NCBI GenBank assembly: GCA_017470935.1
Contig: JAFUXG010000038.1
Coordinates: 1 to 33,829, forward strand
Length of the DNA: 33,829 bases
Source: Lachnospiraceae bacterium
GTDB lineage: Bacteria > Bacillota > Clostridia > Lachnospirales > Lachnospiraceae
Reading direction: 5' to 3'
Numbering within the stretch: the stretch's first letter is position 1; the number at the start of each line of letters is the position of its first letter. A program made the position numbers and the translations under genes. Under the pieces are notes generated by a model. It ran no database searches. It saw only the letters and a program-made list of their open reading frames with translations, and was not told the origin of the DNA. This document shows positions 1,405-8,184 of the stretch, in pieces.

Positions 1405-1412
1405 TGATATGT

Positions 1413-1440
1413 AAGGCAGGACTAGCGTCCTGCCTTGGTT
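1413..1440 (+). terminator. Rho-independent terminator, GGCAGGA family
   Basis: The stem AAGGCAGGA / TCCTGCCTT (1413-1421 and 1428-1436) has a CTAGCG loop and is followed by ttggtttt. It sits 8 nt after the stop of the first membrane-protein gene. The same stem core recurs at 8039-8090 and 10317-10337. Confidence 0.75.
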
Positions 1441-1507: not shown

Positions 1508-1536
1508 TTGAAATAATTCAACAAATAATGTAAAAT
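1508..1536 (+). promoter_or_regulatory. Sigma-A-type promoter for the three-gene protease operon
   Basis: TTGAAA at 1508-1513, a 17-nt spacer, and TAAAAT at 1531-1536. It lies 70 nt before the ATG of the 4-TM gene and after the upstream terminator, so the three genes at 1607-5407 probably form their own transcript. A TTGTTGA...TCAACAA inverted repeat spans the -35 region and could be an operator. Confidence 0.55.
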
Positions 1537-1606: not shown

Positions 1607-2944
1607 ATGAGCATACGATTGAGAAACTGCAAGGAATTACAGAATAAAATAGTACCCAAATATAATTTTATATTTTTTATAATATTTATTGTTTGGTTGT
1701 TTATGCTTTTGGGGAGTATTGCTTGCTATGTTTATTCTGGAACAATAGAAAAGTTTGTCAAAGAAATATTAGTTGGTCATGAAGATGTGTTATATGTTTT
1801 AAAATATATGATTAATAATTTGAAATTCAGTAGGGGTAATATACATGATTATATAGCTGTCTTATGTACGATTGTTGCTGCCGTTGTAGTGTTGTATTAT
1901 ACATTGCAGGATACACATCGTGAGGGGATTCCCCATAGGAAAGTTATTGCTTATTTTATAGGCTCAGCGTCCATCCCTACCTTGTTTTTTATCCAGCTTA
2001 TCATGACAGGATTGATGTCTTTACATTTTGTGGAGGATCGGTATGTTTTGTTACTGGGGTTTTCGGCTGCGACATTTTTTTTACAATTTATTATTTTATA
2101 TGTTATTATTTTGTCTTCTACCAGTTCTTTTTGTAGACAGTGTATTAAAAAAACAGAATATGATCAGTTCCATTATCTGATGAAATATTCCGTTGAAAAT
2201 AAACAGTATGTGTGGAACTATTTTGTTCACCACATGCCGCAAGTGTTGGCAGGAGAGGAAATGATTTTTGATAAAGCCATATCTGTTAGCAGCTTGTTAA
2301 GTGTTCCGCTGGATTATAAGAAGTCAGAAAGAATAGAAAGAGATGAAAAGTCAAACAACAAATGGAAAGTTTTTACATACGAATATTATTTTCGAAATGT
2401 TCTGATGAGTTTTGAGCAATTAGCGAGTAGTAGGGAAGATAGTAATCAAATCTTTGAAACTATATATGAATTTGTGGAATGTCTGCAGAATAATAAAGAT
2501 ATTGATATAAATGATCGACTATTGGTCATTTCTGCCATTTTAAATGCAGCACAGACAAGCGGAATTATGAAAGCGGAGGCATTTTGCTGTCATATTATTA
2601 ATAATATTGGAAATGAAAGAGCGGACGAGTATGATTGGCACAAAAAATTGATTTTCCTTTACTTGCTGTACTTGGATCATCTATTTCGGACGGAAGAGGA
2701 GAAAGTACAGATTAATGAATTGCTTACGATTGATGGGATAAAAGAACTAGAATTTGTCAATGATGATATTTATACAGAATTTTGGTGTATTTGGACAACG
2801 CAATCTGACCTACCGTGGGAGAGAAGTATTGATTATTTGATAATGGCATTGGAGGGTCTTTTAGGTATAAGAGGTGTTTCGACAGTAATAGATTTTTATC
2901 ATTATATTATTAATAGGGATAAGGAAGAATTTAAATGCGAATAA
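1607..2944 (+). CDS. Hypothetical 4-TM membrane protein with cytoplasmic helical domain (445 aa)
   Basis: First gene of a tight operon. Four clear membrane segments lie at about residues 20-43, 82-101, 112-137 and 146-169. They are followed by about 275 soluble residues (from the cysteine-containing linker near 175 to the end) that look mainly alpha-helical. No catalytic motif is visible. The ATG at 1607 has a taggag ribosome site 5-10 nt upstream. The last 10 nt overlap the start of the next gene (ATG at 2935), so the two are probably translationally coupled. I infer that it is the membrane component of a complex with the next two products. The family is unknown to me. Confidence 0.75.
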   Translation: MSIRLRNCKELQNKIVPKYNFIFFIIFIVWLFMLLGSIACYVYSGTIEKFVKEILVGHEDVLYVLKYMINNLKFSRGNIHDYIAVLCTIVAAVVVLYYTLQDTHREGIPHRKVIAYFIGSASIPTLFFIQLIMTGLMSLHFVEDRYVLLLGFSAATFFLQFIILYVIILSSTSSFCRQCIKKTEYDQFHYLMKYSVENKQYVWNYFVHHMPQVLAGEEMIFDKAISVSSLLSVPLDYKKSERIERDEKSNNKWKVFTYEYYFRNVLMSFEQLASSREDSNQIFETIYEFVECLQNNKDIDINDRLLVISAILNAAQTSGIMKAEAFCCHIINNIGNERADEYDWHKKLIFLYLLYLDHLFRTEEEKVQINELLTIDGIKELEFVNDDIYTEFWCIWTTQSDLPWERSIDYLIMALEGLLGIRGVSTVIDFYHYIINRDKEEFKCE

Positions 2945-3798
2945 GAACAATACAAATGATCAGTAATACATACGAGTATCTTATTAAAGATTCTCAAACA
3001 GTATCTGGAAAATACTGTGTTTTTGGACCATTTGATGCAATGAATATTGAAGATAGTACGAGACAATGGGACGCACAAGAGAACAGGCGTGATATTAGAG
3101 ATTATACAAGTGGGATGACATTATCCCACTGCGATGGGAAAAGTAACAGGAATGATATAATATGTGTGTTTCCAGAGCCGGAGGAAAAGGAGGAGCAAGA
3201 GTTCATTGATAAAATGAATATGGCACCGTATTTGTTCCTTTCTTTTTTGTTGCTTGATCATGGTGATCAATCTGGCAGCGAGAAAATTAAGAGTGAATTA
3301 AATAATATCAATAATTTGGGTGATTGCCGTGCATATCTTACTTTTGGGAAAAATGAAATAATATTATTACATTACTGCAATAGTTATACTAAGGGGATGA
3401 GAAAGATGTTACATAATCATACATATTTTTCATTGTCAAAAGCTTCTACTATATTTTCTGTTCGGGAAGATGCGTTAGATATTCAAACTTCCTTTCATAA
3501 ACAGGTGGACTATGAGGAAATGGTAAGCTGTAGATTTCGAGGAGTTATGAAAAATACGGGGGATTCAGAGAAATACATCTGGAAGTTGAAGAAAAACATT
3601 CAGAATGATTTAAAGAATTCGGATGATTTTCGATGGTATGATGTGATAGGGGGGACGGATAAGCTGATAGAAATTGACAATTATCCTTTGGAAAAATTAT
3701 TACCATTATATAAAAAAGGTAATCTATTGACGCATTCAAATAAAGATTATTTCCAGGCTTGGTATAATATTGAAACGGAAATAATGGTTAAAAAGTGA
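2935..3798 (+). CDS. Hypothetical protein with three repeated strand motifs (287 aa)
   Basis: Middle gene of the operon, overlapping its upstream neighbour by 10 nt and ending 10 nt before the next start. No family is recognised. A similar pattern appears three times: YCVFGPFDAMNI at about 27-38, AYLTFGKNEIILL at 133-145, and WYDVIGGTDKLIEI at 234-247. Each has a glycine followed three residues later by D or N, or an equivalent, and then a hydrophobic strand. The spacing of about 100 residues suggests three tandem alpha/beta modules, possibly of ferredoxin-like fold; that fold is an inference from pattern only. No signal peptide or membrane segment is seen, apart from a short hydrophobic stretch near 98-108. 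Its position suggests it is the adaptor or sensor between the membrane protein and the putative protease. Confidence 0.75.
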   Translation: MRIRTIQMISNTYEYLIKDSQTVSGKYCVFGPFDAMNIEDSTRQWDAQENRRDIRDYTSGMTLSHCDGKSNRNDIICVFPEPEEKEEQEFIDKMNMAPYLFLSFLLLDHGDQSGSEKIKSELNNINNLGDCRAYLTFGKNEIILLHYCNSYTKGMRKMLHNHTYFSLSKASTIFSVREDALDIQTSFHKQVDYEEMVSCRFRGVMKNTGDSEKYIWKLKKNIQNDLKNSDDFRWYDVIGGTDKLIEIDNYPLEKLLPLYKKGNLLTHSNKDYFQAWYNIETEIMVKK

Positions 3799-3808
3799 GG
3801 CTGAAATA

Positions 3809-5407
3809 ATGGAAAATAATTCGGATAATAATATATTGTATACGCTAAAGCAGAAATACAACAAATGTAAAGATCAACCGGCTCTGGCGACCCAGATTCT
3901 CTATGTTATAAAATTGCAGAATGAGCTGACCAAAATTAATGGTTATTCTTTTCATAGCTATGAGAAAACAATTTTTGAACGTGCTATGCAGATTTTTATA
4001 AGCCATTTTATTGAGCAAATAGATATCATATTAGAAATGGATAATGAAAATGGCAAGCAGGAAAGGAATTTAACAGAAAAAAAACATGCATATATTAAAG
4101 ATGTTCAGGATGCTGTCGAGAAGATGGTTGAAATCTTTCAGAACATGGTAGGGAGCATTAAAAATGTTGACCAGCCATTATTTCCGACCATGTCCGATAG
4201 TATGTATGTGTTTGACGCCTCTCCGAAGATTCTAACCTTTTATTCACGCATGTTAAACAAATTAGCGGAGATTTTAGATAACTCAGAGCAGTATGTTTTT
4301 TTATTATACCCGGCGATGACCGATATTATATATACCGATGTTTTATTTCAGAAAAGGGATGTGACCGGGAAAGTGATTATTGTTACTTTCCCGGAAAGCT
4401 TGATTGAGCATCCCGGAGTTATTCCGATTTTATTTCACGAAGCTTTTCATGTAGTGGAGCGTAATTACCGCTACAGAAAGCTGCGTGCACAATGTTATTG
4501 GGAAAATATGTGTCATCAGATAGAGACGTCCATTTTTTATGGGCTTGATGATTTGTCATATTCAACAAATAAGAGTTGCCAAAAGGCAACTCGCGTACTA
4601 CTGCAACCGATGTTGGATGAATTTTTTTCATGGCTTCGTAGAGTGGATAAGACAGAGAGGGCGTTGTATGCACATAATCTAAATGAAGTTGCGGGGCAAA
4701 AATTCCGATTGGCATTAATGGATTTTGATGATAAGGTATATGATGTTGATATCAACAAAAGCTCTAAAGCTTTTAAGGATATAGATGAATGGAACTTTAA
4801 GAATTATTGCAAAGCTGTGGAAACGCACATAGCTAGAAAGCTTCAAATTCGAAAGAATATTGTGCAGATTTTTTCTTATGATTCATTGCGTATATTTGGA
4901 GAATCCTTCATGGATATATATCGTGAAGGGTACGCCGATATTGCGTCTTGCCTGTTTCTAAATCTATCTGTCAGTGATTATGATGCAGCATTTGAGCTGT
5001 CGTGTCAATTTAGTGTTCCTAATAAAGAATATGAGGATAGGGAGCGTGTAGTTAGGCAATATGTTGTGAGTAATGCGCTTTCGAAAGTGGGACCGGAAGA
5101 GCAAAGAATGAAATGGAAAGAAAAAAGTGAAAAATGTTTGGAACGGATTAGTCATTGGACTGTAGTATCTGAATCGGAGAAAGGGGTTGTAAGAGATGAA
5201 GATATGAAAATGAATATAGTTTTGGACAATGAAATACTAAAGTCTTACAATAGTTATTTTGAGAAGGTGGCAATGGAATTGGATAAACATTTTTCTAAGG
5301 TCTTAAAAGCAAAAAATGTGGTTAATTTCAGAACGTTGGTTAAAGATGCAATGTCTTTAAAGGAAAGCGTTATGCTTGACGTTTTTCTTGGCACTATTGA
5401 ATTATGA
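3809..5407 (+). CDS. Putative zinc metallopeptidase with HEAFH motif (532 aa)
   Basis: Third gene of the operon, 10 nt after the 287-aa gene, with a gaggctg ribosome site before ATG. Residues 210-214 read H-E-A-F-H, matching the HExxH signature of zinc metallopeptidases: two histidine ligands and the catalytic glutamate. It follows a hydrophobic helix (GVIPILF), as in true HExxH helices. A second motif, E373-G-Y-A-D377, resembles the E-x-x-x-D glutamate-ligand helix of gluzincins, although the 160-residue gap is longer than usual and implies an inserted domain. There is no signal peptide, so it probably acts in the cytoplasm. The first 130 residues look helical. Protease activity is inferred from the motif; substrate and exact family are unknown. 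Confidence 0.75.
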   Translation: MENNSDNNILYTLKQKYNKCKDQPALATQILYVIKLQNELTKINGYSFHSYEKTIFERAMQIFISHFIEQIDIILEMDNENGKQERNLTEKKHAYIKDVQDAVEKMVEIFQNMVGSIKNVDQPLFPTMSDSMYVFDASPKILTFYSRMLNKLAEILDNSEQYVFLLYPAMTDIIYTDVLFQKRDVTGKVIIVTFPESLIEHPGVIPILFHEAFHVVERNYRYRKLRAQCYWENMCHQIETSIFYGLDDLSYSTNKSCQKATRVLLQPMLDEFFSWLRRVDKTERALYAHNLNEVAGQKFRLALMDFDDKVYDVDINKSSKAFKDIDEWNFKNYCKAVETHIARKLQIRKNIVQIFSYDSLRIFGESFMDIYREGYADIASCLFLNLSVSDYDAAFELSCQFSVPNKEYEDRERVVRQYVVSNALSKVGPEEQRMKWKEKSEKCLERISHWTVVSESEKGVVRDEDMKMNIVLDNEILKSYNSYFEKVAMELDKHFSKVLKAKNVVNFRTLVKDAMSLKESVMLDVFLGTIEL

Positions 5408-6050: not shown

Positions 6051-6246
6051 ATAGTGGTCAGTTGTGCAACTGCTAGTATAATATATGAGCAGGATTGTGG
6101 TCATACCCGTAAAGTGGCCCAAGGAAAGCGCTGGGAGAACCTTTCTGAAGTCGCGCATCCTTACATCGTCTCTTTCGAAGGGAAAAGTCATGCTTTAGGG
6201 TGTAAAAGCTTGGTTGTATAGAATTAATGCAGGAGAGATGAGAATT

Positions 6247-6794
6247 ATGAATGAAAGATATAATAGAATTCTTCATAACATATTTATTTATGGACTAATA
6301 GCAACTGTTAGTTTTCTTACATTTGCTTTTATCATCACGTCGGTTAATACTAACTTGTTTCTTAGTATAGCAGCTTCAATTCTATTATTGATTTTATTAA
6401 AGATTGCAAATGTAATTAATTGGGAGGCTTTGCGTAATATTATTTTTTTAGAGGTTCCCATAACCGTAGGATTTGTAATTGCAAAGCTATATCAAGGTGT
6501 TCCTATAGATGGTATATGTGATTATGCTGGGGTTGCTGATAAACATAGTTTTTGCGTGTGTTTTTACTGGTTGTAATCATAATTGAAAATCTATTAATAA
6601 TCTATTTTGTAAAAAAAGGATCTGAGGTACATTCAAAGATTCATAATAATGTTGGTAAAATTGTACTCTACCCTGAACGAGAAAGTGATCTGGAAAGACT
6701 TGAATTGTATATTTCTGACTACTCTGCTGTGGGAGTGAATGGTATATGGGGAAGTGGTAAGACAGTGCTTGCGGACGAATTGAAGACGTTCTAG
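6247..6794 (+). pseudogene. Frameshifted, truncated KAP-type P-loop NTPase
   Basis: The first part starts at ATG 6247 after an AGGAGA site and encodes about 100 residues with several membrane segments, stopping at 6576. The reading continues in another frame from about 6550 (RVFLLVVIIIENLL..., ending at 6794), which adds another membrane segment, then PERESDLERLELYI and a Walker A loop GIWGSGKT. Membrane segments followed by G-x-W-G-S-G-K-[ST] are characteristic of KAP-family P-loop NTPases, which are often found in phage-defence and plasmid loci. The shift falls in a TTTTT tract at about 6549-6553. The second frame stops nine residues after the Walker A loop, so the Walker B region and the rest of the ATPase (several hundred residues in the family) are missing. 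I call it a relic. Confidence 0.6.
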
Positions 6795-7392: not shown

Positions 7393-7573
7393 AGTATGCG
7401 GAGAACTTCATAGAAAATACATCTTTATGAATTTTTGTTCATGCTTTTATATAGAAATTACATGATAAAAATTAAATATACATAATTCTTCATTGAATTG
7501 ACATTGAAGTTCATAATTTCATTTTTTATAATAGTAGTATCAGATGCGCATCCGAAATATTAAGTAGGAGCTG

Positions 7574-8031
7574 ATGCTTATGAAAAAACAAAGGACTATG
7601 ATAATGCATTCAAGACATTGGAGCTGAGACATAAGAGGCTTTTTATTTCATGTATCAATGAAGCGATGTTACAATGGAAGAACAATCGTGAGATTACGAA
7701 TGTTGAGCTGGCGGACTTGGGCAGCTGCATGCGTGTCGTGGCGAGATATATAACAGACGGCAATGAGATAGAATACAAGATGGTGAAGGCAATGGGCGGA
7801 GAGATCATCGAGCTGCCGAGTGACAGGCTGAGGGAGGCAGAGGAGAAGATTGCGGAGCTGAGTGCGGCAGCAAAAGAAACAGAGGAGAAGATCGCGAAGC
7901 TGAACAAAGTATTGGAAGAAGCAGATGCAAGAGCGGAAGAGGCGGATGCAAGGGCGAACCATCTGCAGAAGAGCAATGATAATCTACTAGTTGAGTTAAG
8001 GGCATACAAGGAGAAATTTGGAAATCTATAG
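7574..8031 (+). pseudogene. Decayed Rpn/PD-(D/E)XK nuclease-type gene with coiled-coil tail
   Basis: A TAGGAG site at 7565-7570 precedes ATGs at 7574 and 7580 that read MLMKKQR and then lose frame. One base on, the frame reads DYDNAFKTL-ELRHKRLFISCINEA, the start typical of Lachnospiraceae Rpn/PD-(D/E)XK-type transposase-like proteins. After a few residues it jumps to their usual C-terminal region (YITDGNEIEY, then MGGEIIELP). The whole catalytic middle, normally over 150 residues, is absent. The tail is a lysine/glutamate/alanine-rich coiled coil with repeated EEADARA units. Translation could still start at TTG 7618 to give 137 residues, so a residual product cannot be excluded. The family assignment is from recalled sequence pattern. 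Confidence 0.55.
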
Positions 8032-8038
8032 TGTAGTT

Positions 8039-8090
8039 TAATACTAATATGTAAGGCAGGATTAACGTCCTGCCTTACATATTAGTATTA
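8039..8090. terminator. Bidirectional-looking terminator with perfect 23-bp stem
   Basis: Positions 8039-8061 are the exact reverse complement of 8068-8090, with the 6-nt loop TTAACG between them. The central stem AGGCAGGA/TCCTGCCT matches the terminators at 1413 and 10317. A/T-rich outer arms provide U-rich flanks on either strand, so it could act both ways. It marks the change from the AT-rich island to the core genes. Confidence 0.75.
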
Positions 8091-8184
8091 AGACCGATTT
8101 ATTTTTAATATTATAGCTGTTATATTATTAATAATTGCAAATAGAATATGTAATTATTACCACATAAGATGAAAAAAATAGATA

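Follow-up and report, generated by a model that had tools for sequence, protein, structure and literature searches.

A three-gene operon of a Lachnospiraceae bacterium as one form of a candidate modular conflict cassette with a predicted zinc metallopeptidase in its core

The window analyzed here is a 33,829-nucleotide (nt) stretch of DNA from a Lachnospiraceae bacterium (contig JAFUXG010000038.1 of assembly GCA_017470935.1, positions 1 to 33,829), in which three adjacent genes, here called A, B, and C, had been pointed out as an unrecognised operon encoding a membrane protein, a protein with repeated modules, and a metallopeptidase. Searches for relatives placed this operon in a broader set of cassettes, in which a constant B-C core is accompanied by one exchangeable partner, the membrane protein A in the window and proteins with DAC, SIR2, or FRG domains elsewhere. 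Judged from the sequences, the trio could be the membrane-protein form of a modular conflict cassette, probably an anti-phage one of the abortive-infection kind, in which B would sense, C would cut, and the partner would kill; we hold the chances for and against this reading to be about equal. The layout of the three genes was exactly as first described, with the same open reading frame coordinates, a 10-nt overlap between A and B, and a 10-nt gap between B and C. The features discussed below are the following.

1607..2944, forward strand: gene A, 445 aa, membrane protein, proposed effector
2935..3798, forward strand: gene B, 287 aa, soluble protein with repeated modules, proposed sensor or regulatory part
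3217..3483, forward strand: module 2 of B, from profile comparison
3514..3795, forward strand: module 3 of B, from profile comparison
3809..5407, forward strand: gene C, 532 aa, predicted zinc metallopeptidase with no membrane segments
4436..4450, forward strand: HEAFH, residues 210-214 of C, H-E-x-x-H in 21 of 21 relatives
4925..4939, forward strand: EGYAD, residues 373-377 of C, with the predicted third zinc ligand E373 and with D377, both invariant in all 21 C proteins
1508..1536, forward strand: promoter-like box before gene A, a consensus match only
1412..1437, forward strand: terminator-like hairpin with a T-rich tail, between gene 190-1404 and the operon

Of 397 genomes of the family, 4 gave a match to C in a single-protein search and 15 did so with a 12-row C profile, a patchy occurrence; at the level of the order and the class, C profiles matched 4 of 392 and 2 of 391 genomes, respectively, the bacterium's own genome being included in each of these counts. 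The scans of a species-genome collection relied on no more than two short patterns at a time, so that they miss relatives; one such scan, with a single pattern, had 30 matching stretches, which led to 7 confirmed loci, 3 of which were already known. With duplicates counted once (L007 = L022, L008 = L025, L053 = L026, and L006 = L027), 21 distinct C loci were obtained in total, window included. Homologues of A, B, and C are neighbours, ordered as in the window, in Parablautia intestinalis (L027) and in a metagenome-assembled genome of a rabbit Lachnospiraceae (L028), which is the co-occurrence that the original prediction had proposed to look for. The recurrence of the trio in these two other genomes, together with the catalytic residues of C, kept at 21 of 21 loci, places the arrangement beyond chance.

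B and C are separate, closely spaced genes in the window and at L027 and L028, while 16 of the 20 loci outside the window carry C as the C-terminal portion of a single protein of 746-1,219 residues. The N-terminal part of these long proteins corresponds to B, which could be aligned or recognised in 15 of the 16, including L062 (E-value 1.7e-9 with the A13 profile and 5.9e-11 with the B profile), the exception being L061, where a search with the B profile gives just E 0.88. At L060, B and C appear as two frames in an assembly with unknown bases and a stop, maybe a broken long gene, and the frame of L016 contains no B. B-C is thus a unit, and because the two are fused in relatives there is strong evidence that they work together. 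All 24 gene pairs measured across the loci lie on the same strand, and 21 of them overlap or are within 54 nt, with gaps of 274-364 nt at L026, L055, and L059; gene starts were placed mechanically at the first start codon, so the overlaps at L027 may be overstated, and the start of the L024 DAC gene was set by hand.

A linked or fused partner accompanies the core at 20 of the 21 loci (six membrane proteins, ten DAC proteins, three SIR2 proteins, and one fused FRG domain), with no partner found at L016. One core beside different effector-type domains, the mark of a modular system, is therefore what the 21 loci present. The membrane partners comprise homologues of A in the window, L027, and L028, and proteins alike in layout only at L058, L060, and L061, with 3-4 strong segments and then a soluble part. 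The SIR2 partners (L015, L021, and L057) match Pfam SIR2_2 with E-values of 4e-15, 2.8e-16, and 5.9e-17, and two of the three resemble ThsA in PADLOC, L021 being without any match there. At L062, the FRG domain (PF08867, E 1.5e-20; PADLOC match PDC-S15) is in the same protein as B-C. A SLATT_5 gene (E 3.8e-10), whose product matches the PADLOC model RTasSLATT, follows the DAC and B-C genes at L054:3774-8773, the sole locus with two candidate partners.

The ten DAC partners (L014, L022-L026, L054-L056, and L059) all keep the motifs DG[A/S] and G[A/S]R[Y/F/H]NS. Eight of them were scanned with Pfam: the DAC model was above cut-off in four (L025, L014, L026, and L054), below it in two (L023 and L024), and absent from two (L022 and L059), and the DACNH model was above cut-off in five, below it in one, and without a match in two. 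L055 and L056 were recognised as DAC proteins solely by a DAC profile of our own, which also found L059 and whose single match in the PDB was 2fb5 (E 0.15), a DAC-domain protein. The canonical DAC motif is of the RHR type; since the partners carry N in place of its second arginine, their product may differ from cyclic di-AMP (c-di-AMP). The bacterium's own genome, about 78% complete, shows only one DAC gene, and that on another contig, which argues that ten DAC neighbours are not due to chance.

A tree was built from 20 C proteins, leaving out L016, whose frame lacks B. The A-B-C trio forms a clade (100/99), as do the SIR2 loci (99/100), and the DAC loci divide into two groups with moderate support (82/84 and 82/83) and with different gene orders. 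Four changes of partner label suffice on this tree, the minimum being three, compared to a mean of 8.9 for shuffled labels and with none of 200 shuffles as low. The partner type follows the C tree, that is, it changes by clade; long branches make the placement of L058-L062 unsure.

C has no hydrophobic membrane segments and carries HEAFH at residues 210-214, as claimed at the outset. The residues H210, E211, H214, R223, R226, E373, and D377 are identical in all 21 proteins, even though the C cores of the relatives are only 13-29% identical to that of the window and the spacing between HExxH and ExxxD varies from 157 to 249 residues. An HExxH motif followed by a distal ExxxD is a gluzincin pattern, and C looks like a gluzincin-like zinc metallopeptidase, in which E373 would bind the metal as third ligand. 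The M48-type gluzincins share both motifs with C; no member exceeded the cut-off of Pfam M48, which gave two weak matches among the 21 (best E 0.033), and the spacing from HExxH to E in C is 157-249. Other weak zincin matches were MPTase-PolyVal in 2 of 21 (E 0.064) and WLM in 1 of 21 (E 0.021); all were accompanied by many unrelated ones, and the window core reached no cut-off. A search of 11 genomes for M48 yielded matches in two. Sequence searches of the PDB found no match for C and a single one (E 0.11) for the B-C profile A9, and no Pfam caspase match was detected in C. A C-core profile (positions 137-287) matched ribonuclease L (E 0.0003), best around the stretch '(P)DLVM', a kinship that we set aside as probable chance, as the match falls on a charged, helical stretch that omits HExxH, although it does cover the region of the conserved ExxxD.

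B is likewise free of hydrophobic membrane segments and contains conserved G-x-x-D motifs, with G31/D34 and G239/D242 kept in all rows of an 11-row alignment. It had been described as built of three similar modules, and this description stands for modules 2 and 3, whose profile comparison scored 23-24 when none of 19 overlapping control windows of C rose above 12.5 for any module. Module 1, on the other hand, scored 11.4-12.5, at control level, although it aligns at the corresponding motif with module 2 in both directions and with module 3 in one of two. By eye, the modules have a beta-alpha-beta-beta-alpha-beta order, and sequence searches of the PDB with B and with its modules gave no match.

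The description of A as a membrane protein with four transmembrane (TM) segments was borne out by four strong hydrophobic segments at about residues 21-39, 82-100, 114-132, and 150-168, with a GIPxR motif between the second and the third, followed by a mostly soluble C-terminal part of about 275 residues with an additional weak segment at 410-428. The homologues at L027 and L028 are 22-27% identical to A of the window. A three-row profile of A matches 4 of the 397 family genomes, namely the window's own, G264, G275, and G045; the copies in the window and G264 adjoin B-C, and that of G045 is a fragment with stops. A is linked to B-C, though not exclusively. An A-type membrane protein without B-C lies on a short contig (L063:1837-2673), where it adjoins a gene named LepA-like by eye. 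No Pfam SLATT domain was found in A or its counterparts (seven proteins scanned), comparison with the DAC proteins revealed no common domain, and the membrane-protein profile had three PDB matches, at E 0.11 or worse.

None of A, B, and C matched a Pfam or NCBIfam model at its cut-off, and those two libraries placed none of them in a housekeeping family; a match to a housekeeping pathway had been named as an outcome that would tell against the original reading. Matches in PADLOC (2023) and PHROGs were weak, the only PADLOC defence-protein model matched being a PglX fragment on C (E 0.042). Neither Pfam nor NCBIfam detected a CD-NTase of the CBASS type in any of the three or in gene 190-1404.

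We propose that the repeated modules of B would detect a trigger or a small molecule and would keep the C peptidase inactive, and that infection would switch C on, so that it would cut and thereby release the partner. In the window the partner would be A: its C-terminal domain would keep the four membrane helices in check, and cleavage by C would then lead to membrane disruption and stop the infected cell. Because partners of the SIR2, FRG, SLATT, and DAC types are swapped around the core, a conflict or defence role is likelier than from genomic context alone, and together with the co-occurrence of the trio this upholds the earlier suggestion of such a role. Bacterial gasdermins are paired with proteases, and a protease adjoining a would-be pore former serves as a working analogy only, since A has four membrane segments and its likeness to gasdermins was examined by Pfam scan only. 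According to PMC9503650, Frg, SIR2, and SLATT belong to antiviral systems, some of these assignments being predictions; peptidases with variable effectors are a known conflict design (PMC7159879), and in DS-2 defence is lost by catalytic mutants of the DAC (PMC13092281).

Several observations weigh against this proposal. The relatives lie mostly between ordinary genes (leuS, secA, and ribosomal proteins, by eye) and not in dense defence islands, and no relatives were detected in plasmids or phages by tblastn or in viral contigs with narrow patterns. The membrane partners at L058, L060, and L061 have no detectable sequence relation to A and may be different proteins. A homologue of A in G275 (278 residues, E 7.8e-12) is on a 4.3-kb contig without B-C. 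Sensing and killing parts were assigned by what we infer from sequence, and DAC, found at nearly half of the loci, is not an obvious killing effector and would suit the opposite direction of signalling better. Near L055, an AAA_15 ATPase (L055:2813-4138), for which PADLOC gave strong hits to AriA and to further ATPases of defence systems, lies with a single gene between it and B-C, an exception to the ordinary surroundings.

That opposite direction, with the partner as sensor or signal maker and B-C as effector, is the foremost alternative, and we regard it as possible, if clearly less probable than the proposal above. DAC would make a cyclic nucleotide, SIR2 or FRG an NAD-derived signal (from nicotinamide adenine dinucleotide), and A would pass on a membrane signal; B would bind it, and C would act as a destructive protease. 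The frequency of DAC, a signal-making domain type, at 10 of 21 loci speaks for it, as do DACNH, a probable sensor domain, above cut-off in five of the eight DAC proteins scanned, and the repeated modules of B, a plausible ligand-binding layout; the SLATT gene at one DAC locus could then be a second effector. SIR2, FRG, and membrane proteins, however, are commonly the killing part, FRG is fused to B-C itself, and the window operon has no signal-making enzyme. Published work offers further points in favor: defence by DS-2 requires DAC (PMC13092281), and SIR2 and Frg are also named as possible signal makers (PMC9503650).

A stress or envelope-signalling module, in which the membrane sensor A, the regulator B, and the protease C would carry out regulated proteolysis, is unlikely. 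The pairing of a membrane protein with a protease and the position of the cassettes among ordinary genes (by eye) would suit it, and DAC partners could tie it to the osmotic control exerted by c-di-AMP; the patchy presence (15 of 397), the strong divergence, and the swapping of partners with SIR2, FRG, and SLATT speak against it. Much less probable is a decaying remnant whose three frames are intact by accident, as three full frames with every catalytic residue kept contradict what the broken look of the adjoining KAP-like and nuclease-like pieces would suggest. Chance neighbours with unrelated roles can be dismissed, given the B-C fusion and the recurrent linkage to the same partner types, in spite of just three A-B-C loci and the lone A of G275.

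Literature searches gave no described system with these three proteins, in agreement with the original prediction, and Galperin 2023 on DAC architectures might mention it. The general design is known, and the B-C core is absent from the libraries scanned and from the literature found. The partner domains of the relatives match models of Thoeris ThsA/SIR2 systems, FRG (PDC-S15), and SLATT, whereas none of the scanned proteins gave a PADLOC match in its B-C core, and A matches none of ThsA/SIR2, FRG, or SLATT. The two-gene EACC1-caspase system (PMC7159879) likewise combines a constant membrane or sensor part and a peptidase with a highly variable effector position, but it consists of a caspase and a single-TM EACC1, mainly in actinobacteria, whereas the cassette here has an HExxH protein and a 4-TM partner in Clostridia, and the peptidase is its constant part; A, with four segments, and C, with HExxH, thus fall outside the EACC1 type. 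The same source mentions metallopeptidases as rare in the effector position, and also in a separate peptide-processing system (PMC7159879), and as described in two papers protease-centred prokaryotic conflict systems are mostly caspase- or trypsin-like, with metallopeptidases in side roles (PMC7159879, PMC9503650). TIR-SLATT neighbourhoods of phages, sometimes with a zincin-like metallopeptidase, resemble L054 in having a peptidase near a SLATT effector, but contain TIR instead of DAC, and their peptidase is likened to C by description only (PMC9503650). DS-2, a CBASS system with an added DAC, includes in its defence operon a gene for a DAC-domain protein, a type also found beside the B-C core in relatives, but comprises a phospholipase and a cGAS-like enzyme, with no peptidase among its three genes, whereas the window operon lacks a cyclase (PMC13092281).

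As regards expression, a single promoter had been claimed for the operon. The box TTGAAA-17-TAAAAT at 1508-1536 makes one plausible, but such boxes are no commoner in the window than in shuffled sequence (54 found, 48.1 expected, standard deviation 6.7). Hairpin and box are consistent with a separate transcript for the operon. Gene 190-1404, upstream, encodes a 404-aa protein that combines two membrane segments with a long, charged, soluble region and is followed by the hairpin; it was dropped as an operon member because of the hairpin and the 202 nt in between. It had no family match (Pfam, PADLOC, NCBIfam, and PHROGs) and no match in the sibling genome G188, itself little informative.

The claim of an AT-rich island holds in part, since GC content rises from 0.27-0.37 in the initial 8 kb to 0.44-0.49 between 9 and 19 kb, but further AT-rich stretches exist at 20-22 and 25-27 kb. 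The region 6214-6794 has the appearance of a broken gene, with two short frames that overlap and a GxxGSGKT loop in one of them; a KAP NTPase relic had been proposed here, and a frame does match PF07693, though below threshold (E 0.018). The presumed nuclease-family relic at 7407-8090 is a piece of a repeated gene family, with diverged partial copies on contigs C28, C39, C62, C7, C41, and C23 of the same genome. No transposase of the insertion sequence claimed nearby was seen in the window, though no search aimed at one was made. The hairpin sequence of 1400-1436, after gene 190-1404, recurs at 8038-8091, so that similar hairpins bracket 1.4-8.1 kb; comparable short matches occur on other contigs. 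The sugar transferase located after the island has, in G188, a 64% identical counterpart with polysaccharide-like genes directly upstream, not A-B-C, which fits an island gained or lost; the window contig stops short of the left flank.

If the proposal is true, immunity would gain a new architecture, a zinc-protease core whose partner switches among SIR2, FRG, DAC, and a 4-TM protein. More tentatively, and with doubt prevailing, the cassettes could constitute a new class of immune system built on a metalloprotease, in which the B-C core would drive outputs that can replace one another (disruption of the membrane, destruction of NAD through SIR2 or FRG, and nucleotide signalling by DAC), the modules of B would be a new ligand-sensing domain, and the cyclic nucleotide of the DAC versions would be an infection signal. 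The zinc-protease core with its swapped partners would, if the proposal is true, also give DACNH-DAC proteins a role beyond the housekeeping control of c-di-AMP, and it raises the question of whether the protease cuts its own partner.

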